Positions 42,110-63,118 of a stretch of 64,000 nt of DNA are shown here, piece after piece. The stretch spans positions 1,488,001 to 1,552,000 of the forward strand of contig JAOWCC010000569.1 of the NCBI GenBank assembly GCA_030867875.1, given 5' to 3'. The position numbers and the translations under genes were made by a program. This stretch comes from Actinernus sp. WN-2022. Its lineage: Eukaryota; Cnidaria; Anthozoa; Actiniaria; Actinernidae. The first letter of the stretch is position 1, and every line of letters starts with the position of its first letter. Under the pieces are notes generated by a model, which was given only the letters and a program-made list of their open reading frames with translations, searched no databases and was not told where the DNA came from.

Positions 42110-42635
42110 CTTGATTCGATATAGTAGTTACTTGCGAATGTTCAATAGGTGTACCAGGAATGACTATGTGATCAGCTATATTGAACAAGACACTAGCTAG
42201 AGCTACAAATCGGCCGTGTTTAAGTGCTAATCGACCAGCCGCCATAGATATCTGATGGCGGGCTAATTGGTTTTCTTGTAGATCCTTAAACAGTGCTTGT
42301 TGGTCGTCTAGTGTAGCTACGCATGAGAGTGCAGCTACGTATGAGACTGCGCGAGTAGCTTGACGTAGTACACCATCTACTAAGTGTACCGTTATTTGAT
42401 TTGCTACTACGGCCTGGTATCTACTATATAAGCGTTTTACGTCCTTCTCAGATAGTTTAGTTATATCTGTTAGGGAGAAATTCTGTCCTAGACATTCTTT
42501 CGTTTTACCCAATACAGCTAAGGTCTTAAGTACTTCCCGATATTCTTCTATATCCTCCAATTCGGTTGAAAAGTCCAATTTGGGTGGTGGACCTGTTAAA
42601 TCCTCACCTTCCAGTTCTTTGACGTATTCATCCAT
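42051..42635 (-). CDS. Polinton protein of unknown function, 194 aa
   Basis: An acidic N-terminus (MDEYVKELEGEDLTG, ELEDIEEYREVL) is followed by a helical half with LRQATRAVSYVAAL, DDQQALFKDLQENQL and HGRFVALASVLFNIADHIVI. The C-terminal half is duplicated in 41621-42109. Its 3' end encodes the start codon of the chimeric gene in another frame (58-bp overlap), and its 5' end overlaps the ATPase gene by 8 bp. I do not recognise a characterised family. Confidence 0.7.
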   Translation of the reverse strand: MDEYVKELEGEDLTGPPPKLDFSTELEDIEEYREVLKTLAVLGKTKECLGQNFSLTDITKLSEKDVKRLYSRYQAVVANQITVHLVDGVLRQATRAVSYVAALSCVATLDDQQALFKDLQENQLARHQISMAAGRLALKHGRFVALASVLFNIADHIVIPGTPIEHSQVTTISNQDGGTDGSDNCGDSKERDYM

Positions 42636-43251
42636 GATAATATGTTATAGGTGCGGGTATCTCTAACACTACTGCAAAAGGATGTCGCAAACAGAAACAT
42701 ATGCGAGCAAACTTATGAGATCGAAGTATCATTCGTAATTTATTACATTCTTGTGAGCCTCCGTAATCATCGAATATCCTCTTTCCATCTATAACCGATG
42801 CCGTATGAAACGCTACTACGATAGCTACGTTCTCACGAAAAGGTTTACATATACTCGTTAATTGTTGGGATAGTACCCAAATAGATAGTCCTATATGTCG
42901 AGCAGAGAATGCTAAATCTACTAGTTTGTCAGTTCGTTTCTTAACGTCCTTCGATGCGGCGCAATCATCGAGAATCAATAGAGTATTGGTACCCGACCAA
43001 AAGGTCGCGCAAATACTTAACGTAGCATCGATGGCATCCTGCGGTGGTGATATGACGAAGAAACGAGGATCTCGATTTGCGAATCCGCGATAGGTCTTGT
43101 TGTGGGCATACGTAGGACAAATCAGTACTATGTAATCGAACTTACCACGAAATGGTCCACGAAGTTGTTCTATGAGAAATGCAGTCTTTCCACAATTCGT
43201 TGGACCTACTATGAGTGAGTTGAATGGGATGTGTTCTACCAAGGAATCCAT
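42628..43251 (-). CDS. A32-like genome-packaging ATPase
   Basis: 207 residues of the FtsK/HerA-type packaging ATPase family of Polintons, virophages and large DNA viruses. Walker A is GPTNCGKT (16-23), Walker B LLILDDCA (91-98), with sensor-like WVLSQQLTSI (about 137-146). It would drive DNA into preformed capsids. The start codon overlaps the stop of the major capsid gene by one base (TGATG). A TATAGTATAAC box lies just upstream within the capsid gene end. Intact. Confidence 0.93.
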   Translation of the reverse strand: MDSLVEHIPFNSLIVGPTNCGKTAFLIEQLRGPFRGKFDYIVLICPTYAHNKTYRGFANRDPRFFVISPPQDAIDATLSICATFWSGTNTLLILDDCAASKDVKKRTDKLVDLAFSARHIGLSIWVLSQQLTSICKPFRENVAIVVAFHTASVIDGKRIFDDYGGSQECNKLRMILRSHKFARICFCLRHPFAVVLEIPAPITYYHG

Positions 43252-44489
43252 CAGTATGTTATACTATACAGAGATCTGTTCAATATCATGAGCTGAGCAT
43301 CTGCGAGAACGTAGATGTGCATGTTCACGTTTCCACTTCCTCCTGCAGTTCTATGTATGCGAATGTCTATATCTTTTCCACCGCCAGTTTGTGCCAAGCC
43401 ATCACCATGAACGGTGGAATCTTTTGCTGTGCGACAATCGACTAGGATAGCGAATCTACTTTCGTAAAACTTCTTTGGAGTCATGGAAGTATCGGATGTA
43501 CCAAACCACCCTTTCGCAGCCTCCCAGAAATCTGGGGGGAGCATACCGCTTGGAAAGAATCTGTTGGGAATTCCGTTGACATCTACTTCTACCTTCAAAA
43601 TATCGGAATTCGAAAACGCTTCGCTATCTCGCGTACCAGCAGTGTGTGGATTTACAAATAGTAGAAGTAGTCCAGTGAATGATCGTCGTGGAACGTTAAC
43701 GTTCTGAGATATCAAAGCATCGGAAGCTTTAGCGATCTTTACTGTCTTGAAGCGAATGGCGTGGTCGTATAGGAATGCAGTACCACCTATTTCGTATTTG
43801 TGAAGTACACTACTAGCCAGCGTTTCATCCTTGATTGCTTCGTATTCTAGTTGGATGTTGGTAAGTTTGTACGTACCTATTTTCGTAGCATCCGATCCAA
43901 CTACGACATCAATGGCATGCGCTAGAGTCAACTCAAACGAAACAGTATCTTCTAGAGCATGTGTATATAGAACTCCCTGTTGCGTCATAATGTCGACATC
44001 TAACGGAATCCTATATTTGGAACCATACGCAGCTAGGAGCGCGTTTTCTCCAGCATCCGAAGTACCTGCATCGCCCGCTTTCGATCGTAGCTTATTCGTG
44101 TTCTCTGATTGGATACCTTGTTGCACTCTCGATTCTCTCTCCTTCGTAGATAGGTATACATCGGAATACGTTTGTAGGAGGTCTGACCTGGCGAGGTCTT
44201 CTACTATTTCAACTCCCATCTTACAGACTCTATGTATGACCAAACATCGTCCAACGTTCGAAACGACTCTGTTATTCACATGTCCACCAGATAATACGAG
44301 GTCGCCCAATAGCGCTAAGCTACCAGGTACTAGTACTATGCCTTCTCCTAGCGTTGGAACATCTACGTATAGAGTCTCACCTGGATTGGCAGATGATGGA
44401 GTGAAAGTTTTCCTATACAAGGTTCGTTGAGCTTTGAGTGCATGAGGCTCTCTTTGCGCCTTCTTAGGAATCAACTTTGACGATATCAT
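43251..44489 (-). CDS. Major capsid protein (double jelly-roll, hexon-like)
   Basis: 412 residues from the ATG at 44489. An upstream ATG at 44525 lies inside the shared divergent promoter and is less likely, because the neighbour on the other strand starts symmetrically. Family blocks: QQGIQSENTNKLRSKAGDAG, AAYGSKYRIPLDVDIM, DTVSFELTLAHAIDVVVG, YKLTNIQLEYE and RRSFTGLLLLFVNPHT, as in Polinton/adintovirus hexon-like proteins. The position directly before the packaging ATPase and the size (about 400-600 usual) fit. It forms the trimeric capsomers of the virion. The frame is intact. Confidence 0.85.
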   Translation of the reverse strand: MISSKLIPKKAQREPHALKAQRTLYRKTFTPSSANPGETLYVDVPTLGEGIVLVPGSLALLGDLVLSGGHVNNRVVSNVGRCLVIHRVCKMGVEIVEDLARSDLLQTYSDVYLSTKERESRVQQGIQSENTNKLRSKAGDAGTSDAGENALLAAYGSKYRIPLDVDIMTQQGVLYTHALEDTVSFELTLAHAIDVVVGSDATKIGTYKLTNIQLEYEAIKDETLASSVLHKYEIGGTAFLYDHAIRFKTVKIAKASDALISQNVNVPRRSFTGLLLLFVNPHTAGTRDSEAFSNSDILKVEVDVNGIPNRFFPSGMLPPDFWEAAKGWFGTSDTSMTPKKFYESRFAILVDCRTAKDSTVHGDGLAQTGGGKDIDIRIHRTAGGSGNVNMHIYVLADAQLMILNRSLYSITY

Positions 44490-44523
44490 GTTGAATATAT
44501 CTATACATATAGTTATGTTTAAC
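44490..44523. promoter_or_regulatory. Palindromic divergent promoter 1
   Basis: The 34 bp between two divergent start codons read GTTGAATATATCTATACATA, then TAGTTATGTTTAAC, an imperfect inverted repeat with GTTGAA/TTTAAC at the ends and TATA-like sequence in the centre. The same design lies at 47039-47081. Confidence 0.6.
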
Positions 44524-45548
44524 ATGGAAGGTGATGCTGTAGAGGAAATACCTGGTGGATCTGAAAGAGGAAAAGATTACGATGATGACGATGCTATCGA
44601 TGCGGAGGAGTGGAATGCGACATTTTCAGAAAAGCCAGGAGAAAGGGTCACAATGAAAACCCTACACGACTACGGGAAGGAAGGCGCTAAACCAAAGAAT
44701 CAGGAAACCTCGTTTTCTATGGGCGATTACATCGACGAACTCATCGACCCGAAAGACTCGGACGAAAGAATCCTGGAAAATCCTAAATTCGGTGCTAGAG
44801 GTGTGATCTTCAAACAAGGATTATCAGACAAGGCAAAACAGGAGATGTTCGAGATCGTCTGGGAACAATATCCAGATGTAGGAATTCGAGGCATTCTCGA
44901 GATGGCAACCATGTCTGATGGTAGAGTCGCTATCCGCGAGTATGGAAGAAGGGTGAGTTATATACGAGGATTGGGAAAGGTCTCAAAAGAGTTTTAGGGC
45001 CTACGTTAGAAAAAGCACTAGAAGAAGTCGTAGTAGCTAAAGACCAATTGAGTGAGAGGATCGAACTAAATGAGGAAATACTCAAAGACCCTACGTCTAC
45101 CGAAACTCAGAAAGAAAACGCTACTAATAAAATAGAGACCGATCAGGAGAAACAAGCAGTCCTAGGCCAAATAGAAGAAGCCATGACAGAACGTATACCA
45201 CTTAGGGATCGTATAAGGACCATCTTCAAGAAGTATGGAGTCAGCATAATTAGCGTGGTAGCTGCGGTAAGTACTGTGATCGGCGTAATAGTTTCCAATC
45301 TGACAAAGACAGTTTCCACGAAAGTACCAGGATTGGGAGACGCTGCCAAAGCAGTCGCTAAAACAACTGCCAAGACCTTGAAAGCAATGGGTAAGAAGTT
45401 AGAGGAGATTCTACCTAAGATGATTGGGCCAATTGCGAGTTTCGTATTCAGTATGGCTGCCGACGTTGTTGGAGTCTTAGCGAACAACGTTTGGTTGTTA
45501 ATCGTAGCAGCAGTGGTCTTCGTAGTGGAGCAATACAAACGACGTTAA
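44524..45548 (+). pseudogene. Large hydrophobic virion-type protein, split by one frameshift
   Basis: Part 1 (44524-44997, 157 residues) is acidic at the start (MEGDAVEEI, DYDDDDAIDAEEWN) and ends with a domain around GIRGILEMATMSDGRVAIRE. Part 2 continues in another frame from about 44970 to 45548, with a coiled region and then IPLRDRIRTIFKKYGVSIIS, two Ala/Thr/Lys-rich helices and a final hydrophobic pair (FVFSMAADVVGVLA, LLIVAAVVFVVEQ). The IRTIFKKYG...LLI layout recurs in cnidarian Mavericks as one protein. A single-base shift near 44960-44990, or less likely programmed frameshifting, separates the parts. Function unknown; a virion membrane role is inferred. Confidence 0.65.
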
Positions 45549-47038
45549 CGAAACAACGTCCATGCGATTCCAGCTGCGGCAATAGATGTCACTGCGAGAT
45601 TAATCTCATGTTTTGGGATAGACTTTGGTATAGGAACTCGTTTCTTGTGCGTCTCGAGAGGCGGCACCAATTTCTTATCTGGAGGTCCTTCCATGGGAGG
45701 CGGACGTCCTTTGACTTCTGCATTGATGTCGTTAGTGCCTAGCGTCATATCTTTCGTGGCTTTCGGGGTTGGATTCCTATAGCCATCTTTCTTACCAAGA
45801 TAGTACACTAGATTGCTTGGCAATAATCGTACGCCTATAGCTATCGCTAGATCGAGCCTCTTATGCGTCGTCATTATAGCGGTAAGATAGTTCTTGTAGC
45901 TCACCACTAAATCGTTTTCGAGAATAGCGCCTTCGACTAAGCTCTTGAACTTTTCTTTTACGTTGAAGCTATCTACGATGGATTCGTTAAGATCGTTTTG
46001 AGCGCCTAGAATACAGTATCCAAAAGCCTCAACAGATCGATTCAATCTACCTAACCCAGCATTCGTCAAACCTCTACCGCTTGGTGGCGTAAACCAATTA
46101 TATTGCTTCCCTTCGTGTTCGTCGTTCCGAATGAAGGATACTAGATCGCCCTTGTCCACCCTGCCTCCCTCGTCTGCAAATAAGTTATTGTGGTTGGGCC
46201 ACGTATCTGCTTCTTTGTCGTAGCCTCGGATTACGTGGACGTTTTTGTAGCCATCATCATACAAAAGGAATACGTCTCCTAATCCGTGATTCCTACCTCC
46301 GTGCCATCGGAAGTCTGGTGTTCGAGATATGCCAAATTCGACGCACAATCTCTCGAGAGCTGACTTGCTGTAGAGGTTATCGAGTTGTTTGAAAGCACTG
46401 TCACCAGGTAGAGGGCAACCAAGTTCATGTAGGATCCTTCGTATCGTGAAATAAACATGGAATCGTAGGAACCCTTGGACAACTGGTGGATACGTTTTGA
46501 AAGTGGGGTCAAACAACGACACACCGCATCCGGAAGTCGCGCACCACGTTGCGAAATTAAGTTGTTGAGGCCAGTACTTGAAATCCGGACCTGATAACCA
46601 CGCATGGGACTCCTTCGCTGTCACATGCTTTACGACGGTCTCCTTGAATACGTTAGGAACGCCAGCTTTGAACTTCTTCGTTGGGGTGACGTATATCCAT
46701 AGATTAGTGAGATCAATATCTCGTGCCGGTCCAGTAGAAGGAACTGCTGTAATAAGATATTTCGCACTCTTATCTAGGGTCAACGTAGATGGGAAGCCAT
46801 CAACCATTCCTTGCAATGCGTCATCGATGCGTTTTTGAGTGGCTGCAGGTAGCTTGGAGACATCATCACCATAGACCACATAGCCAGAATCCCCATCTCG
46901 AAACCAAATACTCGTCGAATATTTGCCTGGACCGTTCACTTCAGTAGAGACATAGAACTCGTGAAGATCCGCATGTGGGTATTTCTTTTTGAACTTCACC
47001 AACAGATTGGCATTCAATGTTGCGACCACATCTGCCAT
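45545..47038 (-). CDS. Conserved Polinton protein of unknown function, 497 aa
   Basis: Starts at the ATG at 47038 (MADVVATLNANLLVKFKKKY); an in-frame extension runs into the divergent promoter and is disregarded. The N-terminal 120 residues look like a separate small fold. The central block (YWPQQLNFATWCATSGCGVS, FLRFHVYFTIRRILHELGCP, LCVEFGISRTPDFRW) recurs in Mavericks of aquatic animals. The C-terminus is Pro/Lys-rich and ends in a membrane helix (EINLAVTSIAAAGIAWTLF). Possibly a virion-surface or entry-related protein, but no function is known to me. It overlaps the preceding convergent gene by 4 bp. Intact. Confidence 0.75.
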   Translation of the reverse strand: MADVVATLNANLLVKFKKKYPHADLHEFYVSTEVNGPGKYSTSIWFRDGDSGYVVYGDDVSKLPAATQKRIDDALQGMVDGFPSTLTLDKSAKYLITAVPSTGPARDIDLTNLWIYVTPTKKFKAGVPNVFKETVVKHVTAKESHAWLSGPDFKYWPQQLNFATWCATSGCGVSLFDPTFKTYPPVVQGFLRFHVYFTIRRILHELGCPLPGDSAFKQLDNLYSKSALERLCVEFGISRTPDFRWHGGRNHGLGDVFLLYDDGYKNVHVIRGYDKEADTWPNHNNLFADEGGRVDKGDLVSFIRNDEHEGKQYNWFTPPSGRGLTNAGLGRLNRSVEAFGYCILGAQNDLNESIVDSFNVKEKFKSLVEGAILENDLVVSYKNYLTAIMTTHKRLDLAIAIGVRLLPSNLVYYLGKKDGYRNPTPKATKDMTLGTNDINAEVKGRPPPMEGPPDKKLVPPLETHKKRVPIPKSIPKHEINLAVTSIAAAGIAWTLFR

Positions 47039-47081
47039 GTTGAAGCTATACGTATATATAGTTATACCTTCAACATATAAG
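47039..47081. promoter_or_regulatory. Palindromic divergent promoter 2
   Basis: TTGAAGCTATACGTATATAT, then AGTTATACCTTCAAC, is an inverted repeat (TGTTGAAG...CTTCAACA) around a TATATA core and separates the starts of the 497-aa gene (-) and the minor capsid gene (+). It shares its plan with 44490-44523. Confidence 0.65.
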
Positions 47082-47741
47082 ATGGTTCTCTTATATATCA
47101 CCACAACGTCGGCTGACCATACTGTCTACTTCGACGACCCTATTGTTATACAGAACGTTTCACTACTCGAGGTCACTTTCGAGAACAGTTGGTGGAACCT
47201 AGCAGAGAATGCTACCTTCTGGTGGTCTACCGAAGGTATAGGGTTCCCGTACGACGTTCCTAAGGGAAACCACACTATGGCGAGCCTTCGACAATTCTTT
47301 GCGCCTGCAGTTGGTGCTGACATCGTAAAAATCGAGAAACCCCACCATAGGAGGTCTTGGAACCTAGAAGTCAAGCAATCGATTCTACTTAGTGGAAATC
47401 TCTGCAAACTGATGGGTATTGATAAGGATGGGATCGCTACGCGACTAAAAGTAGGCATACACGAAGTGTCCATTCAAGATGAAATCGACATAGCGTATAT
47501 CTACTGCGACGTGGTGGATTGCAGATTTTCGATTCGAGATGGAAAGCAATCTAAAGTCCTAAGTAGAATACATATCCGAGGCGATAGATTTGTGAAAACG
47601 ACGTATGCCTCACTACAACCTATAGTTGTCAAAGCTCTAGGTACGGCACGAAACAGCCTTCGCCTGACGATTCGTGACGAGAAAGGCAATACCATAAACT
47701 TCCATGGTCAACCTATACGCTACGTATTAAAGATTGAGTAA
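47082..47741 (+). CDS. Minor capsid protein (penton-like, single jelly-roll)
   Basis: 219 residues from the ATG at 47082, right after the palindromic promoter. Family features of Polinton penton proteins: an N-terminal strand region (TVYFDDPIVIQNVSLLEVTF), NATFWWSTEG, a VPKGNHTMASLRQFF turn, SGNLCKLMGIDKDG, and AYIYCDVVDCR near the middle, followed by RIHIRGDRFVKT and a final strand. It would close the five-fold vertices of the capsid. Intact, divergent from the 497-aa gene. Confidence 0.75.
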   Translation: MVLLYITTTSADHTVYFDDPIVIQNVSLLEVTFENSWWNLAENATFWWSTEGIGFPYDVPKGNHTMASLRQFFAPAVGADIVKIEKPHHRRSWNLEVKQSILLSGNLCKLMGIDKDGIATRLKVGIHEVSIQDEIDIAYIYCDVVDCRFSIRDGKQSKVLSRIHIRGDRFVKTTYASLQPIVVKALGTARNSLRLTIRDEKGNTINFHGQPIRYVLKIE

Positions 47742-47765: not shown

Positions 47766-48392
47766 ATGATGGACGGCGATTCAATTCAACCCCTTTTTCC
47801 ATCAGCACCAAATATCTATCCACCGCTTGCTAGTGGCACTGGAAAGAATTTTCGACTACAAACAATCCGAGATACGCTTTCGGATATCGAAACTCAAGAA
47901 AAACACTATGAAGGCGTGCGTAAGAAATATGCGCGTTCTCAAGGAATAGTTCATGGTATCGCAGTGGTAACAGGAGGTCTATCTGTGATTTTATCTGGAT
48001 CTGGATTGGGAGTAGCCTTAACTGGTTTTGGAATAGTGATTGGTTTACCACTTGGTGTTATTGGTGGCTTGTGCGGGTTAATTTCAGCATCTACGACCGT
48101 TGGAGCTAAAAAATTAGGAATAAAAGTATCTAAGCATGAGAAAACCACTATGTTAGCAAAAGCTAAAATTAATACGATTCGTGATCTAGTATCGAAAGCC
48201 TTGCGTGATGAAAATATATCCGACTCTGAATACGGTCTAATCCTCGCTGAAGCAGATAAGTACGAGATTATGAGGTCTGAAATTCGTCATAAGACTTTGG
48301 GTGGTGAAAAAAACGTGGAACAGATTCGAATGGAACTCAAACAAGAAGTGCAAAAGGAAATGCGAGAAAAACTTGGCAGTCTAGTGGGATAA
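47766..48392 (+). CDS. Polinton membrane protein with Gly-rich double helix, 208 aa
   Basis: A soluble N-terminus (residues 1-35) precedes a coiled region (TLSDIETQEKHYEGVRKKYA), two hydrophobic Gly-rich segments (IVHGIAVVTGGLSVILSGSG and LTGFGIVIGLPLGVIGGLCG), then a helical C-terminus (KLGIKVSKHEKTTMLAKAKI, DENISDSEYGLILAEADKY). I know the 'KHE...LAxxKLNTI..........DxxISDEEF..IL.E..KY' pattern from cnidarian Mavericks. It may act in membranes, but nothing is established. The bases from about 47869 on are the start of the 4.9-kb tandem unit, so truncated copies occur at 52765, 57661 and 62560. Confidence 0.7.
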   Translation: MMDGDSIQPLFPSAPNIYPPLASGTGKNFRLQTIRDTLSDIETQEKHYEGVRKKYARSQGIVHGIAVVTGGLSVILSGSGLGVALTGFGIVIGLPLGVIGGLCGLISASTTVGAKKLGIKVSKHEKTTMLAKAKINTIRDLVSKALRDENISDSEYGLILAEADKYEIMRSEIRHKTLGGEKNVEQIRMELKQEVQKEMREKLGSLVG

Positions 48393-48427
48393 GAATCGAA
48401 TGTGGCTCTTATTTTCACTTTACGAAA

Positions 48428-49381
48428 TCAAACCCTATCACTAGTTAGACCGTGTTTTTTATAGATGGGCTCAAAGTAGGAATGGTAAGCAATCAACTCC
48501 TTGACAAAACGTATGATCGAACCCTTATGTATACCACACCGTTTAACAACGTTAATAAGAGACATACAAGATCCCGAACGACGTAGTACCTCGTAACTTG
48601 CTCCAACGACTTTAGTTCGAAGTATAGAGCTGGTACCTATATTGTTTTCTATTGCCGTATGAACAATCTCATAGACTATTTGTTGGACATTCTTAGGTAC
48701 TCCTTGGGGGTCGAGTTTAACAAAAGTCGTTGTAATGTGAGGAGCTATTCGATCGGTATTTAAATCTATATCGATCTTATCGTCATCATGTAGAGAACGT
48801 ATAAAGACATTTCCACGACATATGCTCTTATTGTTTAGTTGCATAAAACGAGCGACCTCTGCTGTAGATCTAACTAACCCACATTGTATACATGCTTGAT
48901 AAAGTATAGCAGCTAAAATAGTTCGTTTCGCATAGCAACGTTTGATACAAACTTTCTGTACTTGAATGAATGTATCGGCTACGATTACTAATACATTTGT
49001 GGGAAACGAGAGGGCGTAATTTTGTTTATAAGTAGTGTTGTATGCCTGTAGTTCTCGCATAATCGTTTGTAGTTGTAATTCTTTGTTATCGCTTTGCTTT
49101 GGGATTGTGCGGTCTAGATCATGTTGATGCTGAAAGCTATCCGGCCCTACTATGTGTAACCTAGTAGTAAGATTGGTAGTTGTTTCTTCACATGATTCGA
49201 CCTCGGAAACAAGACCACAAGTGGGACATATGAATTCCATTCCTTGTAGTTCCATCGGACATAAACATTCGGAACATGATTCACCGGTGCTAATATGCGA
49301 CAATGGTTCAATATGCGACAATGGTTTCATATGTAGGCTTGCACAAATTTCTGGACCAAGTAATCTAATAATGTCATCCAT
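48428..49381 (-). CDS. TFIIB-like transcription factor, copy 1
   Basis: 317 residues from the ATG at 49381; an upstream extension through the A-tract is unlikely. A zinc ribbon with C36-x2-C39 and C52-x2-C55 (CSECLCPM...FICPTCGLVSEVE) is followed by two cyclin-like repeats: KRTILAAILYQACIQCGLVR with a recognition-type helix to about residue 190, and SILRTKVVGASYEVLRRSGS ... CGIHKGSIIRFVKEL near the end. This is the architecture of TFIIB, which bridges TBP and RNA polymerase II. Viral TFIIB homologues occur in asfar- and other large DNA viruses. Since no RNA polymerase gene is present, it would act with the host enzyme. Copies 2-4 lie in the tandem array. Confidence 0.75.
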   Translation of the reverse strand: MDDIIRLLGPEICASLHMKPLSHIEPLSHISTGESCSECLCPMELQGMEFICPTCGLVSEVESCEETTTNLTTRLHIVGPDSFQHQHDLDRTIPKQSDNKELQLQTIMRELQAYNTTYKQNYALSFPTNVLVIVADTFIQVQKVCIKRCYAKRTILAAILYQACIQCGLVRSTAEVARFMQLNNKSICRGNVFIRSLHDDDKIDIDLNTDRIAPHITTTFVKLDPQGVPKNVQQIVYEIVHTAIENNIGTSSILRTKVVGASYEVLRRSGSCMSLINVVKRCGIHKGSIIRFVKELIAYHSYFEPIYKKHGLTSDRV

Positions 49382-49430
49382 ACTAGTTGTATACCATATG
49401 CCTGTCAATTGTCTAATTGCTCGTTTGTTT

Positions 49431-49506
49431 AAAAAAAAAAAAAAAAAAAAATTAAGAGAGGTCGCATAACAATTTCTCTTCATTCTTTTTTTTTTTTTTT
49501 TTTTTT
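49431..49506. other. A-tract/T-tract hairpin region 2
   Basis: About 22 A residues, a 34-bp spacer with TTAAGAGAGGTCGCATAACA, then about 22 T residues ending TTTCGTGTCG. The tracts can pair into a long A-T hairpin. It sits between the TFIIB-like gene start and the zinc-gene stop, and its tract lengths vary between array copies. Confidence 0.7.
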
Positions 49507-49519
49507 CGTGTCGTGATTT

Positions 49520-49939
49520 CTACTTATCCTCCGATTCTACCGCATTTAGATCTTTCTCGCCGATGGAGAGGTCATCCAATGCATTATCGAGATCGTTAAT
49601 GTCCACCACATTTTGATCTTTTTCCGATTCCACTACATTTAGATATTTTTCCGATTTTACTACATTTGAACATGTGATATTCGCCGACTCGTTAGCTCGT
49701 TTCTTATCAAGGTTCTTCTTATTGCGAATGGTACGGCGTTGATGTGCACCACATTTTGCACAAAGTTCATGAATAGTACGACAGCCTCGACCACACGTCA
49801 AACATGGAACGAATATGGCACATCCTATTCCTATCTGGAAGTTATGTTGAGAGCAATACTCTGACGTCTTTGAACACTTCCTTATACATTTCGTGGTCTT
49901 TCCTCGCATCAACCAATCACAAGTTCTTGTCTCAATCAT
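49520..49939 (-). CDS. Cys/His-rich zinc-binding protein, copy 1, 139 aa
   Basis: The N-terminal motif CDWLMRGKTTKCIRKCSK followed by EYCSQHN matches the 'C...RGK...C......YCxxH' mini-finger often seen in large DNA viruses. A second cluster, CLTCGRGCRTIHELCAKCG, follows. The C-terminal half is acidic, with three VESEKD(x)NVV repeats. Located between TFIIB-like and TFIIS-like genes in the same direction, it is probably part of one transcription-related cassette. Upstream there is a TATAACATATATAGG box. Function unknown. Confidence 0.7.
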   Translation of the reverse strand: MIETRTCDWLMRGKTTKCIRKCSKTSEYCSQHNFQIGIGCAIFVPCLTCGRGCRTIHELCAKCGAHQRRTIRNKKNLDKKRANESANITCSNVVKSEKYLNVVESEKDQNVVDINDLDNALDDLSIGEKDLNAVESEDK

Positions 49940-50170
49940 CGTGCAATATACCTATATATGTTATATGTCTAATTGGTATCTTAGTTGTGACGTCTACGTT
50001 GAGGTTCTTCAATCACGCGCGGTTGTCTAATCTGTATGGTATTAATACGTACTAAGATAACAGCATACGTTAATATCGTGAAGTAAAGAATATATATTAA
50101 TACCATTGGTGGATGTACCGTATACTAATCACTCCTCTAATAGGTGCTCAAGTTGTCCATTTTTCAGATC
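49940..50170. other. Intergenic region with a copy of the CCTATTAGAGGAGTG motif
   Basis: On the minus strand CCTATTAGAGGAGTGATTAG occurs at about 50127-50146, about 190 bp upstream of the zinc-protein gene. The rest is AT-rich. No gene. Confidence 0.5.
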
Positions 50171-50704
50171 TTACCTACCAATAAAGTTCGTACCACATTG
50201 TCTACAAGTACAAAATATCGTTGTTGGTTCATCGAGAGCTCGAGTTTGTACTTCTCGATAAACGCAATTGCGTTCGTGACAAGTAGGACATTTATAGAGC
50301 TGAGATGTCTTTTCATTAACCTTCTGTTGGCTTCGTAAAGCAATTTCAGTACGTTCGTTTCTAGAAGCTTTTGGACACAATTGTGCTGACCTAAGATATC
50401 CCATTTCGTTAGGTGTCCATATTCCCTTTGCTAGTTGATCAAGAGCGAATGTACCATGCGTGCGACAAACGCTGGAACTAGGATCTAAATTACTAAGTAC
50501 GGTTCCACATCGTGAAGAATAAATATTTATGAACGAATCGGATGTCCAACTGCGGACGACTGCTTCCGTTTGAAGGGCTTCGATTACTCGATTATAGCAC
50601 GATCGCTCTAATAATGTTGCGAAAGTCCCGGGGTTGGAAAAACGAGAATCGCTAGAGAAAATACGATAGAATATCGCACGATATAATAAACGGGGTTCGG
50701 CCAT
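50171..50704 (-). CDS. TFIIS-like transcription elongation factor, copy 1
   Basis: 177 residues. The C-terminus is a TFIIS-type zinc ribbon: YKCPTCHERNCVYREVQTRA, LDEPTTIFCTCRQCG, with four Cys in CxxC pairs and the Asp-Glu (DE) pair that in TFIIS enters the polymerase active centre to stimulate RNA cleavage. The N-terminal 130 residues look like a reduced central domain (SYNRVIEAL-like helices, DQLAKGIWTPNEMG). Length is between cellular TFIIS (about 300) and viral forms (about 180). Directly upstream lies CCCATTAGAGAAAGG...TTAGGTATT, the motif also present before pol. Second and third copies are identical or nearly so. Confidence 0.85.
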   Translation of the reverse strand: MAEPRLLYRAIFYRIFSSDSRFSNPGTFATLLERSCYNRVIEALQTEAVVRSWTSDSFINIYSSRCGTVLSNLDPSSSVCRTHGTFALDQLAKGIWTPNEMGYLRSAQLCPKASRNERTEIALRSQQKVNEKTSQLYKCPTCHERNCVYREVQTRALDEPTTIFCTCRQCGTNFIGR

Positions 50705-50766
50705 AGTGCAGTACCTAATAGTAACCTTTCTCTAATGGGGTGAAAAAAAAATGCAACAACGCGCAC
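50705..50766 (-). promoter_or_regulatory. Promoter-like motif of the TFIIS-like gene
   Basis: On the minus strand CCCCATTAGAGAAAGGTTAC, then TATTAGGTATTGCACT, ends at the ATG. It corresponds to the CCTATTAGAGGAGTG...AGGTAT motif in front of pol. Confidence 0.6.
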
Positions 50767-50962
50767 TAAAAAATACAACGAAAAAATGAGGGTCTTATTA
50801 TATGTTGTTTTTTCTTGTGTCATATGTTGTTTTTTGTTGCATCGGTTCGTTGAAATTTGTTGTACGTGTCCCAATCGTTTGCTGCTCTTTGTTGCTTTTT
50901 CGTTGCATTTGTTCGTTGAAATTTGTTGGAACTGCACCAGTCCCCCTACTTTGTATACTACT
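50767..50962 (-). repeat. Right terminal inverted repeat of the Polinton
   Basis: Inverted copy of 35162-35357, ending CTTTGTATACTACT. It is followed by the TAATT/TTAATT duplication and the host intron. Repeated with the array at 55663-55858 and 60562-60757. Confidence 0.95.
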
Positions 50963-50967
50963 TAATT
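50962..50967 (+). repeat. Target-site duplication, right (TTAATT)
   Basis: Second copy of the left TTAATT. The following host sequence TTGTGCATCATATTGCATTG is the same as that after the empty site at about 34672. Confidence 0.9.
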
Positions 50968-51109
50968 TGTGCATCATATTGCATTGTTTCGTAGTCTCAA
51001 AATAAAGACAAAAATGAAAAAGTTAAGGATAGGGTGTGAAATGATAAACTGTAACACTGCCTGATAAACCTCTACTAGGTTTGGAATGACAAGCCTAATA
51101 CACAGACAG

Positions 51110-52209
51110 TACTTGTACCTTGTCTTGGATGTGGCCATTCAGTTCCAATGGTGCAGTTGAGGGAACATCACTCTGAAAGGTACCGCAAAAAGGTTGGTAG
51201 CACAGTCTGCCTTATCCTTGGAAATGCTTTGAACACAGCTATACATATATACATGCACGTTCAATGCCATATTTACCATGTTGTTTATTCAACTTACAAA
51301 GTATAACAGATACATGTCCTTTTAACACTGCAAGGAAATATGTTCATTGACTTATCCAAACATGTATAATTTATTTCAGCATTTCATCCAATGATGATAA
51401 TGCTATATTACCAGAACAACAATGTGAATACCCAGGTCCATCTTCAGTTGTAACAGGTAAACACCTCTGTGTAATGAAACATATATGTACATTGAAAACA
51501 TATGTACAATTTATATATCTCAAGTTGCATTGTTCAAGAAGATATGGAAAAAACCTCATAAGAACTTCCCTGTTTGAAATGCATAGGTAGCAGTGACCTG
51601 ACTGCACTCAAGGACATATTCCCAAACAAATCTGCCATTGAACTGGAAAATGCCCTGAAAAATGCTGAATCCGTAGAGCTTACATTTCAAGGAGAAGGTC
51701 TAGCTTTTAGAAGAGAGATTTGAAGCAGGCTTTAACAAGGCCTCTGTTTCCATTGAAGCCAAGGAGAAACTGCTTCAAACCTTAGCATATCACTATATAA
51801 TTAATGTTGCCATGAAGAAATTGCCCAGTTTAAATAGGGACTTTCACTTGGTGGAGTACTTAATGTGCTTCAGAAATTTACAGAAGAGAGTTTTGTAGAA
51901 TTAACCAGTAACAAGGTATCAGCTATTACCCCTGAAGTTCTTAATTCTTTTCGAGGCTCGCCTTTCTAGTGAAGGTTCTAATTAACAAAAGAGGTGCAGA
52001 GGAAGACATTTTATATAACTGGTCAAACTTTCTCAATAATGTCCACAATGGTAAAGTTACTCAAAACCACAATTTCCTTAGAAGATGACACTTTTGAGGA
52101 GATTGAAACATGCTTAACACTGAACGATGTTTTGATGTTTACTACAGGATCCTACTACATGACAGTCATGGGATTTCGGTTAAAACCAATTATTGAAAAA
52201 AATACATAA
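51110..52209 (+). pseudogene. 3' exons of the CUE/HECT-like host gene, copy 1
   Basis: Exons recognised: LVPCLGCGHSVPMVQLREHH (Cys/His motif, from 51110), a short exon after TTTCAG at about 51380 (ISSNDDNAILPEQQCEYPGP), a CUE-like exon after ATAG at about 51588 (LTALKDIFPNKSAIELENAL), and a HECT-like C-terminal region with FTEESFVELTSNKVSA and LTNDVLMFTTGSY-like TLNDVLMFTTGSYYMTVMGF. The HECT part has stops and frame changes and lacks the catalytic Cys segment, so it is decayed. HECT enzymes attach ubiquitin. The exons continue the gene begun at 32722. Confidence 0.5.
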
Positions 52210-52750
52210 GGCCTCGTTCAAGACGGATCAAAGCGTAACGCAACTGAACTAAGCAAACATATCTGGCACTTGAGAGACAATAACTTAGATTATGCAATTA
52301 AATGGAATATTTTATGCCGTGCTGCTCACTACTCAAACATAACGAAGCGATGTAATTTATGTATAACAGAGAGGTTCTTTATTTTACGCAAACCAGAAAA
52401 CGCAACTTTGAACAAACGGAACGAACTGATCAGCAAATGTAGACACAAAGATAAATTTCTACTGAGAAACGTGAAGTGAATTTGCTATTGTTTTATATGA
52501 CACAATTAAGCCCCCATTGAAATCGAAGGAAGTAATATGATATTTTTGATGCTGTAAATATTCTCTGTAGTCGACCTTTGGTCATGCACTGAAGAGTGCA
52601 GGTTCGTCCTGTACGAAACAGAACTGTATGCATTACACCAGAGTCAAAAGTGTATTCGCTCTACCGAATAGACGCGTTCAGCTCTCTAGAGGATTCAGTG
52701 CTTTATTTTCTTCTATAAATGTATGCATTTCCTCTATGCAGAACAACAAA
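52210..52750 (+). mobile_element. Penelope-like element 3' end, copy 1
   Basis: The frame 52270-52479 reads LDYAIKWNILCRAAHYSNIT, KRCNLCITERFFI and NKRNELISKCRHKDKFLL, the end of the GIY-YIG endonuclease of Penelope-like retroelements (CNLC...RNEL...CRH). The following non-coding tail contains GACCTTTGGTCATGCACTGA. Only the end of the element remains. Its last bases are joined to the Polinton unit at 52764/52765. Confidence 0.65.
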
Positions 52751-53288
52751 AGAACATCAGTTCCGAGATACGCTTTCGGATATCGAAACTCAAGAAAAAC
52801 ACTATGAAGGCGTGCGTAAGAAATATGCGCGTTCTCAAGGAATAGTTCATGGTATCGCAGTGGTAACAGGAGGTCTATCTGTGATTTTATCTGGATCTGG
52901 ATTGGGAGTAGCCTTAACTGGTTTTGGAATAGTGATTGGTTTACCACTTGGTGTTATTGGTGGCTTGTGCGGGTTAATTTCAGCATCTACGACCGTTGGA
53001 GCTAAAAAATTAGGAATAAAAGTATCTAAGCATGAGAAAACCACTATGTTAGCAAAAGCTAAAATTAATACGATTCGTGATCTAGTATCGAAAGCCTTGC
53101 GTGATGAAAATATATCCGACTCTGAATACGGTCTAATCCTCGCTGAAGCAGATAAGTACGAGATTATGAGGTCTGAAATTCGTCATAAGACTTTGGGTGG
53201 TGAAAAAAACGTGGAACAGATTCGAATGGAACTCAAACAAGAAGTGCAAAAGGAAATGCGAGAAAAACTTGGCAGTCTAGTGGGATAA
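52719..53288 (+). pseudogene. Truncated Gly-rich membrane gene with new 5' end, copy 2
   Basis: From 52765 on the sequence equals 47869-48392. The original start and first about 34 residues are missing. A frame beginning at 52719 within the Penelope tail (MYAFPLCRTTKEHQF) reads into it and could give a 189-residue protein with a foreign N-terminus. No evidence that it is expressed. Confidence 0.7.
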
Positions 53289-53323
53289 GAATCGAATGTG
53301 GCTCTTATTTTCACTTTACGAAA

Positions 53324-54277
53324 TCAAACCCTATCACTAGTTAGACCGTGTTTTTTATAGATGGGCTCAAAGTAGGAATGGTAAGCAATCAACTCCTTGA
53401 CAAAACGTATGATCGAACCCTTATGTATACCACACCGTTTAACAACGTTAATAAGAGACATACAAGATCCCGAACGACGTAGTACCTCGTAACTTGCTCC
53501 AACGACTTTAGTTCGAAGTATAGAGCTGGTACCTATATTGTTTTCTATTGCCGTATGAACAATCTCATAGACTATTTGTTGGACATTCTTAGGTACTCCT
53601 TGGGGGTCGAGTTTAACAAAAGTCGTTGTAATGTGAGGAGCTATTCGATCGGTATTTAAATCTATATCGATCTTATCGTCATCATGTAGAGAACGTATAA
53701 AGACATTTCCACGACATATGCTCTTATTGTTTAGTTGCATAAAACGAGCGACCTCTGCTGTAGATCTAACTAACCCACATTGTATACATGCTTGATAAAG
53801 TATAGCAGCTAAAATAGTTCGTTTCGCATAGCAACGTTTGATACAAACTTTCTGTACTTGAATGAATGTATCGGCTACGATTACTAATACATTTGTGGGA
53901 AACGAGAGGGCGTAATTTTGTTTATAAGTAGTGTTGTATGCCTGTAGTTCTCGCATAATCGTTTGTAGTTGTAATTCTTTGTTATCGCTTTGCTTTGGGA
54001 TTGTGCGGTCTAGATCATGTTGATGCTGAAAGCTATCCGGCCCTACTATGTGTAACCTAGTAGTAAGATTGGTAGTTGTTTCTTCACATGATTCGACCTC
54101 GGAAACAAGACCACAAGTGGGACATATGAATTCCATTCCTTGTAGTTCCATCGGACATAAACATTCGGAACATGATTCACCGGTGCTAATATGCGACAAT
54201 GGTTCAATATGCGACAATGGTTTGATATGTAGGCTTGCACAAATTTCTGGACCAAGTAATCTAATAATGTCATCCAT
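53324..54277 (-). CDS. TFIIB-like transcription factor, copy 2
   Basis: 317 residues, same frame as copy 1 with Ile for Met at residue 18 and Ala as in copy 1 in the first cyclin repeat. Zinc ribbon and cyclin repeats intact. Confidence 0.75.
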   Translation of the reverse strand: MDDIIRLLGPEICASLHIKPLSHIEPLSHISTGESCSECLCPMELQGMEFICPTCGLVSEVESCEETTTNLTTRLHIVGPDSFQHQHDLDRTIPKQSDNKELQLQTIMRELQAYNTTYKQNYALSFPTNVLVIVADTFIQVQKVCIKRCYAKRTILAAILYQACIQCGLVRSTAEVARFMQLNNKSICRGNVFIRSLHDDDKIDIDLNTDRIAPHITTTFVKLDPQGVPKNVQQIVYEIVHTAIENNIGTSSILRTKVVGASYEVLRRSGSCMSLINVVKRCGIHKGSIIRFVKELIAYHSYFEPIYKKHGLTSDRV

Positions 54278-54326
54278 ACTAGTTGTATACCATATGCCTG
54301 TCAATTGTCTAATTGCTCGTTTGTTT

Positions 54327-54404
54327 AAAAAAAAAAAAAAAAAAAAATTAAGAGAGGTCGCATAACAATTTCTCTTCATTCTTTTTTTTTTTTTTTTTTT
54401 TTCG
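54327..54404. other. A-tract/T-tract hairpin, copy 2
   Basis: Same structure as 49431-49506. Confidence 0.7.
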
Positions 54405-54415
54405 TGTCGTGATTT

Positions 54416-54835
54416 CTACTTATCCTCCGATTCTACCGCATTTAGATCTTTCTCGCCGATGGAGAGGTCATCCAATGCATTATCGAGATCGTTAATGTCC
54501 ACCACATTTTGATCTTTTTCCGATTCCACTACATTTAGATATTTTTCCGATTCTACTACATTTGAACATGTGATATTCGCCGACTCGTTAGCTCGTTTCT
54601 TATCAAGGTTCTTCTTATTGCGAATGGTACGGCGTTGATGTGCACCACATTTTGCACAAAGTTCATGAATAGTACGACAGCCTCGACCACACGTCAAACA
54701 TGGAACGAATATGGCACATCCTATTCCTATCTGGAAGTTATGTTGAGAGCAATACTCTGACGTCTTTGAACACTTCCTTATACATTTCGTGGTCTTTCCT
54801 CGCATCAACCAATCACAAGTTCTTGTCTCAATCAT
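54416..54835 (-). CDS. Cys/His-rich zinc-binding protein, copy 2
   Basis: 139 residues; differs from copy 1 by Glu instead of Lys in the first acidic repeat. Both metal clusters are retained. Confidence 0.7.
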   Translation of the reverse strand: MIETRTCDWLMRGKTTKCIRKCSKTSEYCSQHNFQIGIGCAIFVPCLTCGRGCRTIHELCAKCGAHQRRTIRNKKNLDKKRANESANITCSNVVESEKYLNVVESEKDQNVVDINDLDNALDDLSIGEKDLNAVESEDK

Positions 54836-55066
54836 CGTGCAATATACCTATATATGTTATATGTCTAATTGGTATCTTAGTTGTGACGTCTACGTTGAGG
54901 TTCTTCAATCACGCGCGGTTGTCTAATCTGTATGGTATTAATACGTACTAAGATAACAGCATACGTTAATATCGTGAAGTAAAGAATATATATTAATACC
55001 ATTGGTGGATATACCGTATACTAATCACTCCTCTAATAGGTGCTCAAGTTGTCCATTTTTCAGATC

Positions 55067-55600
55067 TTACCTACCAATAAAGTTCGTACCACATTGTCTA
55101 CAAGTACAAAATATCGTTGTTGGTTCATCGAGAGCTCGAGTTTGTACTTCTCGATAAACGCAATTGCGTTCGTGACAAGTAGGACATTTATAGAGCTGAG
55201 ATGTCTTTTCATTAACCTTCTGTTGGCTTCGTAAAGCAATTTCAGTACGTTCGTTTCTAGAAGCTTTTGGACACAATTGTGCTGACCTAAGATATCCCAT
55301 TTCGTTAGGTGTCCATATTCCCTTTGCTAGTTGATCAAGAGCGAATGTACCATGCGTGCGACAAACGCTGGAACTAGGATCTAAATTACTAAGTACGGTT
55401 CCACATCGTGAAGAATAAATATTTATGAACGAATCGGATGTCCAACTGCGGACGACTGCTTCCGTTTGAAGGGCTTCGATTACTCGATTATAGCACGATC
55501 GCTCTAATAATGTTGCGAAAGTCCCGGGGTTGGAAAAACGAGAATCGCTAGAGAAAATACGATAGAATATCGCACGATATAATAAACGGGGTTCGGCCAT
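55067..55600 (-). CDS. TFIIS-like elongation factor, copy 2
   Basis: 177 residues, same protein as copy 1 including the DE-bearing zinc ribbon. The base just upstream of the start differs (GCAATACC for GCAGTACC on the plus strand). Confidence 0.85.
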   Translation of the reverse strand: MAEPRLLYRAIFYRIFSSDSRFSNPGTFATLLERSCYNRVIEALQTEAVVRSWTSDSFINIYSSRCGTVLSNLDPSSSVCRTHGTFALDQLAKGIWTPNEMGYLRSAQLCPKASRNERTEIALRSQQKVNEKTSQLYKCPTCHERNCVYREVQTRALDEPTTIFCTCRQCGTNFIGR

Positions 55601-55662
55601 AGTGCAATACCTAATAGTAACCTTTCTCTAATGGGGTGAAAAAAAAATGCAACAACGCGCAC

Positions 55663-55858
55663 TAAAAAATACAACGAAAAAATGAGGGTCTTATTATATG
55701 TTGTTTTTTCTTGTGTCATATGTTGTTTTTTGTTGCATCGGTTCGTTGAAATTTGTTGTACGTGTCCCAATCGTTTGCTGCTCTTTGTTGCTTTTTCGTT
55801 GCATTTGTTCGTTGAAATTTGTTGGAACTGCACCAGTCCCCCTACTTTGTATACTACT
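55663..55858 (-). repeat. Polinton right TIR, copy 2
   Basis: Duplicate of 50767-50962, followed by the same host intron sequence. There is no matching left TIR nearby. Confidence 0.95.
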
Positions 55859-56005
55859 TAATTTGTGCATCATATTGCATTGTTTCGTAGTCTCAAAATA
55901 AAGACAAAAATGAAAAAGTTAAGGATAGGGTGTGAAATGATAAACTGTAACACTGCCTGATAAACCTCTACTAGGTTTGGAATGACAAGCCTAATACACA
56001 GACAG

Positions 56006-57105
56006 TACTTGTACCTTGTCTTGGATGTGGCCATTCAGTTCCAATGGTGCAGTTGAGGGAACATCACTCTGAAAGGTACCGCAAAAAGGTTGGTAGCACA
56101 GTCTGCCTTATCCTTGGAAATGCTTTGAACACAGCTATACATATATACATGCACGTTCAATGCCATATTTACCATGTTGTTTATTCAACTTACAAAGTAT
56201 AACAGATACATGTCCTTTTAACACTGCAAGGAAATATGTTCATTGACTTATCCAAACATGTATAATTTATTTCAGCATTTCATCCAATGATGATAATGCT
56301 ATATTACCAGAACAACAATGTGAATACCCAGGTCCATCTTCAGTTGTAACAGGTAAACACCTCTGTGTAATGAAACATATATGTACATTGAAAACATATG
56401 TACAATTTATATATCTCAAGTTGCATTGTTCAAGAAGATATGGAAAAAACCTCATAAGAACTTCCCTGTTTGAAATGCATAGGTAGCAGTGACCTGACTG
56501 CACTCAAGGACATATTCCCAAACAAATCTGCCATTGAACTGGAAAATGCCCTGAAAAATGCTGAATCCGTAGAGCTTACATTTCAAGGAGAAGGTCTAGC
56601 TTTTAGAAGAGAGATTTGAAGCAGGCTTTAACAAGGCCTCTGTTTCCATTGAAGCCAAGGAGAAACTGCTTCAAACCTTAGCATACCACTATATAATTAA
56701 TGTTGCCATGAAGAAATTGCCCAGTTTAAATAGGGACTTTCACTTGGTGGAGTACTTAATGTGCTTCAGAAATTTACAGAAGAGAGTTTTGTAGAATTAA
56801 CCAGTAACAAGGTATCAGCTATTACCCCTGAAATTCTTAATTCTTTTCGAGGCTCGCCTTTCTAGTGAAGGTTCTAATTAACAAAAGAGGTGCAGAGGAA
56901 GACATTTTATATAACTGGTCAAACTTTCTCAATAATGTCCACAATGGTAAAGTTACTCAAAACCACAATTTCCTTAGAAGATGACACTTTTGAGGAGATT
57001 GAAACATGCTTAACACTGAACGATGTTTTGATGTTTACTACAGGATCCTACTACATGACAGTCATGGGATTTCGGTTAAAACCAATTATTGAAAAAAATA
57101 CATAA
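56006..57105 (+). pseudogene. CUE/HECT-like 3' exons, copy 2
   Basis: Same exons as 51110-52209 with isolated substitutions (for example CATACCAC for CATATCAC near 56685 and AAATTC for AAGTTC near 56832). Confidence 0.5.
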
Positions 57106-57646
57106 GACCTCGTTCAAGACGGATCAAAGCGTAACGCAACTGAACTAAGCAAACATATCTGGCACTTGAGAGACAATAACTTAGATTATGCAATTAAATG
57201 GAATATTTTATGCCGTGCTGCTCACTACTCAAACATAACGAAGCGATGTAATTTATGTATAACAGAGAGGTTCTTTATTTTACGCAAACCAGAAAACGCA
57301 ACTTTGAACAAACGGAACGAACTGATCAGCAAATGTAGACACAAAGATAAATTTCTACTGAGAAACGTGAAGTGAATTTGCTATTGTTTTATATGACACA
57401 ATTAAGCCCCCATTGAAATCGAAGGAAGTAATATGATATTTTTGATGCTGTAAATATTCTCTGTAGTCGACCTTTGGTCATGCACTGAAGAGTGCAGGTT
57501 CGTCCTGTACGAAACAGAACTGTATGCATTACACCAGAGTCAAAAGTGTATTCGCTCTACCGAATAGACGCGTTCAGCTCTCTAGAGGATTCAGTGCTTT
57601 ATTTTCTTCTATAAATGTATGCATTTCCTCTATGCAGAACAACAAA
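57106..57646 (+). mobile_element. Penelope-like 3' end, copy 2
   Basis: Duplicate of 52210-52750, starting GACCTCG where copy 1 has GGCCTCG. Confidence 0.65.
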
Positions 57647-58184
57647 AGAACATCAGTTCCGAGATACGCTTTCGGATATCGAAACTCAAGAAAAACACTA
57701 TGAAGGCGTGCGTAAGAAATATGCGCGTTCTCAAGGAATAGTTCATGGTATCGCAGTGGTAACAGGAGGTCTATCTGTGATTTTATCTGGATCTGGATTG
57801 GGAGTAGCCTTAACTGGTTTTGGAATAGTGATTGGTTTACCACTTGGTGTTATTGGTGGCTTGTGCGGGTTAATTTCAGCATCTACGACCGTTGGAGCTA
57901 AAAAATTAGGAATAAAAGTATCTAAGCATGAGAAAACCACTATGTTAGCAAAAGCTAAAATTAATACGATTCGTGATCTAGTATCGAAAGCCTTGCGTGA
58001 TGAAAATATATCCGACTCTGAATACGGTCTAATCCTCGCTGAAGCAGATAAGTACGAGATTATGAGGTCTGAAATTCGTCATAAGACTTTGGGTGGTGAA
58101 AAAAACGTGGAACAGATTCGAATGGAACTCAAACAAGAAGTGCAAAAGGAAATGCGAGAAAAACTTGGCAGTCTAGTGGGATAA
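57615..58184 (+). pseudogene. Truncated Gly-rich membrane gene, copy 3
   Basis: Same chimeric frame as 52719-53288 with no visible change in the predicted protein. Confidence 0.7.
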
Positions 58185-58219
58185 GAATCGAATGTGGCTC
58201 TTATTTTCACTTTACGAAA

Positions 58220-59173
58220 TCAAACCCTATCACTAGTTAGACCGTGTTTTTTATAGATGGGCTCAAAGTAGGAATGGTAAGCAATCAACTCCTTGACAAA
58301 ACGTATGATCGAACCCTTATGTATACCACACCGTTTAACAACGTTAATAAGAGACATACAAGATCCCGAACGACGTAGTACCTCGTAACTTGCTCCAACG
58401 ACTTTAGTTCGAAGTATAGAGCTGGTACCTATATTGTTTTCTATTGCCGTATGAACAATCTCATAGACTATTTGTTGGACATTCTTAGGTACTCCTTGGG
58501 GGTCGAGTTTAACAAAAGTCGTTGTAATGTGAGGAGCTATTCGATCGGTATTTAAATCTATATCGATCTTATCGTCATCATGTAGAGAACGTATAAAGAC
58601 ATTTCCACGACATATGCTCTTATTGTTTAGTTGCATAAAACGAGCGACCTCTCCTGTAGATCTAACTAACCCACATTGTATACATGCTTGATAAAGTATA
58701 GCAGCTAAAATAGTTCGTTTCGCATAGCAACGTTTGATACAAACTTTCTGTACTTGAATGAATGTATCGGCTACGATTACTAATACATTTGTGGGAAACG
58801 AGAGGGCGTAATTTTGTTTATAAGTAGTGTTGTATGCCTGTAGTTCTCGCATAATCGTTTGTAGTTGTAATTCTTTGTTATCGCTTTGCTTTGGGATTGT
58901 GCGGTCTAGATCATGTTGATGCTGAAAGCTATCCGGCCCTACTATGTGTAACCTAGTAGTAAGATTGGTAGTTGTTTCTTCACATGATTCGACCTCGGAA
59001 ACAAGACCACAAGTGGGACATATGAATTCCATTCCTTGTAGTTCCATCGGACATAAACATTCGGAACATGATTCACCGGTGCTAATATGCGACAATGGTT
59101 CAATATGCGACAATGGTTTCATATGTAGGCTTGCACAAATTTCTGGACCAAGTAATCTAATAATGTCATCCAT
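58220..59173 (-). CDS. TFIIB-like transcription factor, copy 3
   Basis: 317 residues. Met at residue 18 as in copy 1, but Gly replaces Ala in the first cyclin repeat (RSTGEVARF), a change shared with copy 4. Confidence 0.75.
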   Translation of the reverse strand: MDDIIRLLGPEICASLHMKPLSHIEPLSHISTGESCSECLCPMELQGMEFICPTCGLVSEVESCEETTTNLTTRLHIVGPDSFQHQHDLDRTIPKQSDNKELQLQTIMRELQAYNTTYKQNYALSFPTNVLVIVADTFIQVQKVCIKRCYAKRTILAAILYQACIQCGLVRSTGEVARFMQLNNKSICRGNVFIRSLHDDDKIDIDLNTDRIAPHITTTFVKLDPQGVPKNVQQIVYEIVHTAIENNIGTSSILRTKVVGASYEVLRRSGSCMSLINVVKRCGIHKGSIIRFVKELIAYHSYFEPIYKKHGLTSDRV

Positions 59174-59221
59174 ACTAGTTGTATACCATATGCCTGTCAA
59201 TTGTCTAATTGCTCGTTTGTT

Positions 59222-59301
59222 TAAAAAAAAAAAAAAAAAAAAAAATTAAGAGAGGTCGCATAACAATTTCTCTTCATTCTTTTTTTTTTTTTTTTTTTTT
59301 T
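59222..59301. other. A-tract/T-tract hairpin, copy 3
   Basis: A-tract longer than in copies 1 and 2, which accounts for the 3-bp greater unit length. Confidence 0.7.
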
Positions 59302-59314
59302 CGTGTCGTGATTT

Positions 59315-59734: not shown

Positions 59735-59965
59735 CGTGCAATATACCTATATATGTTATATGTCTAATTGGTATCTTAGTTGTGACGTCTACGTTGAGGT
59801 TCTTCAATCACGCGCGGTTGTCTAATCTGTATGGTATTAATACGTACTAAGATAACAGCATACGTTAATATCGTGAAGTAAAGAATATATATTAATACCA
59901 TTGGTGGATATACCGTATACTAATCACTCCTCTAATAGGTGCTCAAGTTGTCCATTTTTCAGATC

Positions 59966-60499: not shown

Positions 60500-60561
60500 A
60501 GTGCAATACCTAATAGTAACCTTTCTCTAATGGGGTGAAAAAAAAATGCAACAACGCGCAC

Positions 60562-63083: not shown

Positions 63084-63118
63084 GAATCGAATGTGGCTCT
63101 TATTTTCACTTTACGAAA

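Follow-up and report, generated by a model that had tools for sequence, protein, structure and literature searches.

An Actinernus Polinton carrying genes for TFIIB-like and TFIIS-like proteins and two kinds of upstream box

We describe a stretch of 64,000 nucleotides (below, the window) from contig JAOWCC010000569.1 (positions 1,488,001 to 1,552,000, forward strand) of the anthozoan Actinernus sp. WN-2022, whose genome measures 1.39 Gb. The window holds a Polinton of 15.8 kb (35162-50962), and three genes on the minus strand at the right end of this element encode a TFIIB-like protein (48428..49381), a Cys/His finger protein (49520..49939) and a TFIIS-like protein (50171..50704). Our reading, to which we assign a probability of about 0.58, is that the element is an integrated virus of the Polinton type with its own TFIIB-like and TFIIS-like factors, which would be made early and steer host RNA polymerase II to the promoters of the element. 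The TFIIB-like and finger genes are a stable pair, and the TFIIS-like gene is their exchangeable neighbour.

That the element is a Polinton, as a sequence-only reading of this DNA had proposed, is borne out by its borders and core genes. Its terminal inverted repeats (TIRs; 35162..35357 on the plus strand, 50767..50962 on the minus strand) are each 196 nt long and 100% complementary, and are flanked by a target duplication that reads TAATT, or TTAATT when the right TIR's final T is included. An empty host site without the insertion is still seen at 34664, in the adjoining copy of a host repeat of about 484 bp. Between the TIRs lie genes for a family B DNA polymerase (polB, 35806..39384, plus strand; phrog_1907, E 2.1e-12; phrog_423, E 1.3e-6), an rve integrase (39376..40386, minus strand; PF00665, E 1.6e-10) and a packaging ATPase of the A32/FtsK type (42628..43251, minus strand; PF04665, E 1.6e-10). 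The three right-end genes were found as open reading frames (ORFs) where that reading had placed them, and its statement that no RNA polymerase subunit is encoded also held: for this character of nucleocytoplasmic large DNA viruses, no match was found when 15 ORFs of the element were run against Pfam.

The ORF of the TFIIB-like gene extends in full over 48428-49483 (351 amino acids), and we take the ATG at 49381 as the likely start, giving 317 amino acids, because the preceding 34 codons cross an A/T homopolymer whose length varies between the units of a tandem array described below, and because one copy flagged for a stop when queried with the 351-residue form (C635:22758020, locus L157) holds an intact 317-residue ORF. 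The plan of a zinc ribbon followed by two cyclin-like repeats, which had been read from the sequence alone, was recovered. The ribbon cysteines (36, 39, 52 and 55) form CxxC-x12-CxxC, with weak support from hidden Markov models (HMMs; 2.0 bits; Zn_Ribbon_TF, E 0.59), and hhalign aligns across both repeats (residues 121-299) with P 2.7e-7, a value without a shuffle control. The protein matches the NCBIfam archaeal TFB model at E 1e-5 and the Pfam TFIIB repeat at E 0.013, which is under the curated cut-off. It scores 16.4 bits against an HMM of 100 archaeal TFBs (kept from at least 110 ORFs of a DNA pattern scan, 10 being removed by a length and ambiguity filter), while the best of 200 shuffles scored 2.2. 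A search of plasmids with the TFIIB-like protein gave no match.

From the window copy alone the homology to TFIIB is weak; comparison with a second Polinton family in this genome makes it firm. Searched with PF00382, the genome had 1,887 candidates, of which 150 were scored as matches; 145 of these lie in open frames of 183-376 amino acids outside exon-like host matches (many ORFs are entered twice in these counts, once per repeat). The five loci examined (L166-L170) encode a second TFIIB-like type of 319-322 amino acids, which clears the Pfam cut-off in two stretches, has the complete TFIIB plan including the EW motif of the B-reader and scores 81-85 bits against the archaeal TFB HMM. The L166 protein aligns over residues 33-320 of 321 with the TFIIB of solved complexes (5iy6 entry group, which we take to be human) at E 8.7e-18, and BLASTP connects the window type with the second type at about 3e-5 across 61 residues. 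Gene neighbourhoods point the same way: in L167 and the adjoining L173 the second type stands beside virion-side genes with 29-52% identity to those of the window, and in L166 the ORF next to TFIIB is 41% identical to the 497-residue protein of the window element. We assign L166-L170 and L173 to a second Polinton family, whose TFIIB is near-canonical and whose genes are arranged differently, and infer that the other PF00382 matches of the 145 probably belong to it. The PF00382 matches at C635:85.93 Mb were rejected as element genes; they resemble exons of a TFIIB-superfamily gene of the host, presumably BRF-like.

The TFIIS-like protein has 177 amino acids and ends in a TFIIS-type ribbon (residues 138-174; Pfam TFIIS ribbon, E 5.8e-14; TFSII, E 1.6e-14) with the catalytic pair Asp158-Glu159, as the sequence-only reading had it. 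The four ribbon cysteines (139, 142, 167 and 170) and the Asp-Glu pair, which it shares with cellular TFIIS, are invariant in 10/10 aligned copies. It differs from cellular TFIIS in its length and in its N-terminal part: the alignment with yeast TFIIS chains begins at residue 89, no TFIIS chain in PDB matches residues 1-113 taken by themselves, Pfam TFIIS_M was not reported, and sequence searches of the protein found no domain II, the polymerase anchor. The TFIIS-like proteins of L157, L158 and L161 bear an N-terminal extension, of about 110 amino acids in the first two. The finger protein, the partner of the TFIIB-like protein, is a Cys/His-rich chain of 139 amino acids; it had been described as viral-style; no convincing family match was found (best Sprouty, E 0.0087, and ribosomal L32, E 0.016).

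Copies of these genes are numerous in the genome. For the window-type TFIIB, 3,307 candidates yielded 116 scored matches, a figure that takes in the array copies. A single stop interrupts the queried stretch in 25 of these; in L157 it falls outside the 317-residue ORF. PolB gave 39 scored matches of 7,305 candidates, 38 of them without a stop, and the TFIIS ribbon 81 of 109, of which at least the top three are probably host exons. We compared 20 right ends of elements, a sample that favours intact TFIIB because it was picked from the TFIIB matches. TFIIB is present in 20/20, with ORFs of 317-325 amino acids, and the finger gene likewise in 20/20, in some partial and in one shortened to 60 amino acids. 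TFIIS is present in only four, and on these counts a single three-gene cassette was dropped. The TFIIS slot of the other 16 right ends holds a 228-residue ORF with a similar start in nine (L133, L137, L138, L140, L142, L144, L145, L146 and L148), a shortened form of it in one (L143) and neither gene in six. The slot ORF of L142 (L142:2319-3002), the sole one tested, codes for a protein with F-box and ankyrin parts, which hints at an accessory slot with swappable content that may serve host protein degradation.

Two short boxes recur upstream of the element genes. ATTAGA lies at -38 of polB (35768..35773, plus strand), and on the minus strand at -36 of the TFIIB-like gene (49412..49417), at -34 of the finger gene (49968..49973), where TATAG follows at -17, and at -32 of the TFIIS-like gene (50731..50736). 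Between -45 and -25 of the ATG it occurs in 4/15 element genes, namely polB and the three factor genes only, against 4/585 other ATGs of the element, and the TATA-like box TATAG occurs between -20 and -8 in 7/15 (int, ATPase, finger and the genes for the 424-, 169-, 519- and 208-residue proteins) against 13/585, with the proviso that several of the 15 start codons were picked by eye with the upstream sequence in view. Besides ATTAGA no 6-mer is found in four genes within a 7-bp position window; random draws of 15 ATGs produced one in 3 of 1000 cases. Two gaps between divergent starts, of 34 bp (44490..44523) and 43 bp (47039..47081), have TATAG on both strands. The likeness of the polB and TFIIS boxes may arise in part because both adjoin the terminal repeats. 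TATAG stands so near the ATG that classical spacing would place the transcription start within the gene.

Among right ends with the finger ATG at the expected place, ATTAGA is present in 14/17 and TATAG in 15/17, and both remain at -34 and -17 in 7/7 further copies, two of which (L152 and L153) are alike and the most distant of which have 56-59% protein identity. ATTAGA is found at TFIIB in 5/6 further copies and at TFIIS in 4/4 right ends that have this gene, while the F-box gene of L142 has it at -43. The earlier proposal had been that the element controls host RNA polymerase II both at initiation and at elongation. The two promoter-like box classes would fit a role at initiation; the pairing of both controls in one fixed cassette did not survive the right-end counts.

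Comparisons with diverged copies give signs of purifying selection on the factor genes. Pairwise ratios of nonsynonymous to synonymous substitution (dN/dS) for the window TFIIB are 0.31 against L152, 0.37 against L154 and 0.35 against L159; they are 0.15-0.35 for TFIIS against six copies and 0.30-0.83 for the finger gene against four. Among closer copies, pooled pN/pS is 0.43 for the finger gene (16 copies) and 0.34 for TFIIS (5 copies).

In the mechanism that we propose, polB and the factor genes, with their shared ATTAGA box, would be made first. On RNA polymerase II the TFIIB-like protein would then take its place beside host TFIIB or instead of it, and would choose the close-set TATAG promoters, possibly helped by the finger protein; the TFIIS-like protein would rescue backtracked polymerase. 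The polymerase that uses the TATAG sites would most likely be host RNA polymerase II. A narrower version, offered tentatively and at somewhat less than even odds, is that the early ATTAGA genes make a TFIIB lineage that would shift host RNA polymerase II to virus-only promoters lying too close to the ATG for host TFIIB; this would be a swap of a general factor shared by two Polinton families, TFIIS and F-box/ankyrin genes taking turns in an accessory slot.

Several observations weigh against host polymerase being steered in this way, besides the choice of start codons mentioned above. No TBP match was found in the ORFs given to Pfam. For the TFIIB-like protein, the PDB sequence search ranks a glycosyltransferase (E 0.014) ahead of TFIIB (E 0.049), neither being significant, and AlphaFold, which had been suggested as a check, gave no usable fold from single sequences without an alignment (mean pLDDT 35.0 for the TFIIB-like protein; a low-confidence helical model with 50.9 for the TFIIS-like protein). 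The TFIIB ATTAGA box is intact in 11/20 right ends and reads ATTGGA or ATTGAA in the others; the TFIIS box of eight further copies is ATTAGA in three, CTTAGA in three and neither in two, both long forms; the second-family TFIIB has no box near -35 in 5/5; and the late divergent promoter of L162 is without TATAG. TFIIS stands without TFIIB in three pieces of 3.5-3.8 kb (L158; L161, which has no finger gene either; and L162, in which the finger gene is present), which together with its presence in so few right ends means that there is no fixed three-gene cassette. Constraint on recent TFIIB copies is weak, since dN/dS comes to 0.74 when the closer L157 is compared and pooled pN/pS is 0.61 in 21 closer copies, and two of the three diverged copies are broken (L154 by a stop, L159 by a frame break). 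Finally, the window type is missing the EW motif of the B-reader, and because of this we label the protein TFIIB-like rather than TFIIB.

The absence of that motif, retained in the second family, also bears on an alternative that we consider unlikely: the TFIIB-like protein could bind yet not start transcription, and as a dominant-negative form or repressor would compete with host TFIIB and damp transcription of the host or of the element. Against such a blocker stand the full TFIIB plan kept in the second family and the company of the factor genes with element-specific boxes. It is somewhat less probable that the factors work for an RNA polymerase brought by a co-infecting large DNA virus, in the way that virophages borrow the polymerase of their helper; TATAG near the ATG does resemble the spacing of the late motif of African swine fever virus (ASFV), but many integrated copies of the element lie in a large genome and no helper was seen, though no search was aimed at helpers. 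That the genes are captured passengers with no current role in transcription, as the lack of TFIIS in 16/20 right ends, the lack of TFIIB in L162 and the weak constraint in close TFIIB copies might suggest, is very improbable given dN/dS of 0.15-0.37 against diverged copies and the invariant Cys and Asp-Glu residues of the TFIIS ribbon.

The element resembles several known systems in part. It shares with Polintons, Mavericks and adintoviruses the TIRs, short target duplication, PolB, rve integrase, A32-type ATPase and length of 15.8 kb, and differs in the TFIIB-like and TFIIS-like genes and the two upstream box classes. In the history of many eukaryotic DNA viruses, Polintons are given a position close to the root. 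A Polinton with such genes and boxes brings Polinton transcription within reach of tests, and is relevant to the question whether large DNA viruses had their transcription factors before or after their RNA polymerase. In the portions of the Polinton and adintovirus literature accessible to us there is no report of TFIIB-like or TFIIS-like genes or of two box classes, an earlier report being possible, and nothing on how Polintons transcribe their genes; the accessible portions of PMC11071308, PMC10120064, PMC4642659, PMC12721341 and PMC12220804 contain nothing on Polinton transcription factors.

ASFV, according to the part of the source available (PMC7163114), likewise has TFIIB and TFIIS homologues and a TATA-like motif near the start, and differs in having its own RNA polymerase of eight subunits and a TBP relative, for neither of which the element ORFs gave a match in Pfam. 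The same text describes 17/55 late genes of ASFV in which the late motif stands at a distance of 4-12 bp from the transcription start, calls this spacing incompatible with a classical complex of TATA, TBP, TFIIB and polymerase, and proposes the use of viral TBP and TFIIB. Thaumarchaeal integrative-conjugative elements, as far as the available text describes them (PMC6563490), are also mobile elements carrying a TFIIB homologue, and differ in being archaeal and conjugative. Extracts of other papers use TFIIB as a giant-virus marker (PMC12638062, PMC13037468) and place TFIIS in baculo-like and large viruses and in mirusviruses (PMC4981718, PMC10132985). Our searches of viral contigs found no relatives of the TFIIB-like, TFIIS-like, 519-residue or integrase proteins and no match to a PolB motif, and PolB had no match among phages. 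The sole TFIIS-ribbon match in the viral contigs is in one with phage-like genes, where the ribbon closes an otherwise unrelated protein (L120:2510-3316).

Further ORFs of the element are read as virion-side genes. The ORF at 43251..44489 (minus strand), without a match in Pfam, NCBIfam or PDB, is by resemblance a candidate for the double jelly-roll major capsid protein. The gene at 45545..47038 (minus strand) encodes the 497-residue protein, which occurs in the second Polinton family too (41% identity over the C-terminus, 52% over residues 16-318). The ORF at 47082..47741 (plus strand), a candidate for a penton or minor capsid protein, has counterparts of 29% identity in L173 and 54% in L162. 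A 208-residue ORF follows at 47766..48392 (plus strand) and is cut by the tandem repeat described next. An adenain-type cysteine protease had no match in the ORFs given to Pfam. The polymerase ORF (35779-39384) contains an endonuclease VII-like stretch near residues 426-481 (Endonuclease_7, E 4e-4, under the cut-off).

The right end of the element is part of a tandem array, which the sequence-only reading had missed. Its unit of 4,896 bp joins the rightmost 3.1 kb of the Polinton to 1.8 kb of flanking host DNA; the first unit spans 47866..52761, and further units fill 52762..64000 and run past the window end. Four units begin in the window and differ by a few single-base and homopolymer changes. 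Contig C1304 has at least six TFIIB matches at 4.9-kb steps and five TFIIS matches, reaching to near the contig end at 1,562,651; because the contig stops in or near the array, these counts are minimum values and an assembly fault is possible.

The left 34 kb of the window consists of transposon pieces, with matches to reverse transcriptase, DUF3504/phage integrase, DUF6589 and integrase core. Inside the element, two neighbouring ORFs at 41621-42635 have in common a 253-nt stretch that is 85% identical, a partial internal duplication, and upstream of the integrase gene, at 40508-40649, an 11-bp tandem repeat, TTAGTAGTAAC, is present in 12.8 copies.

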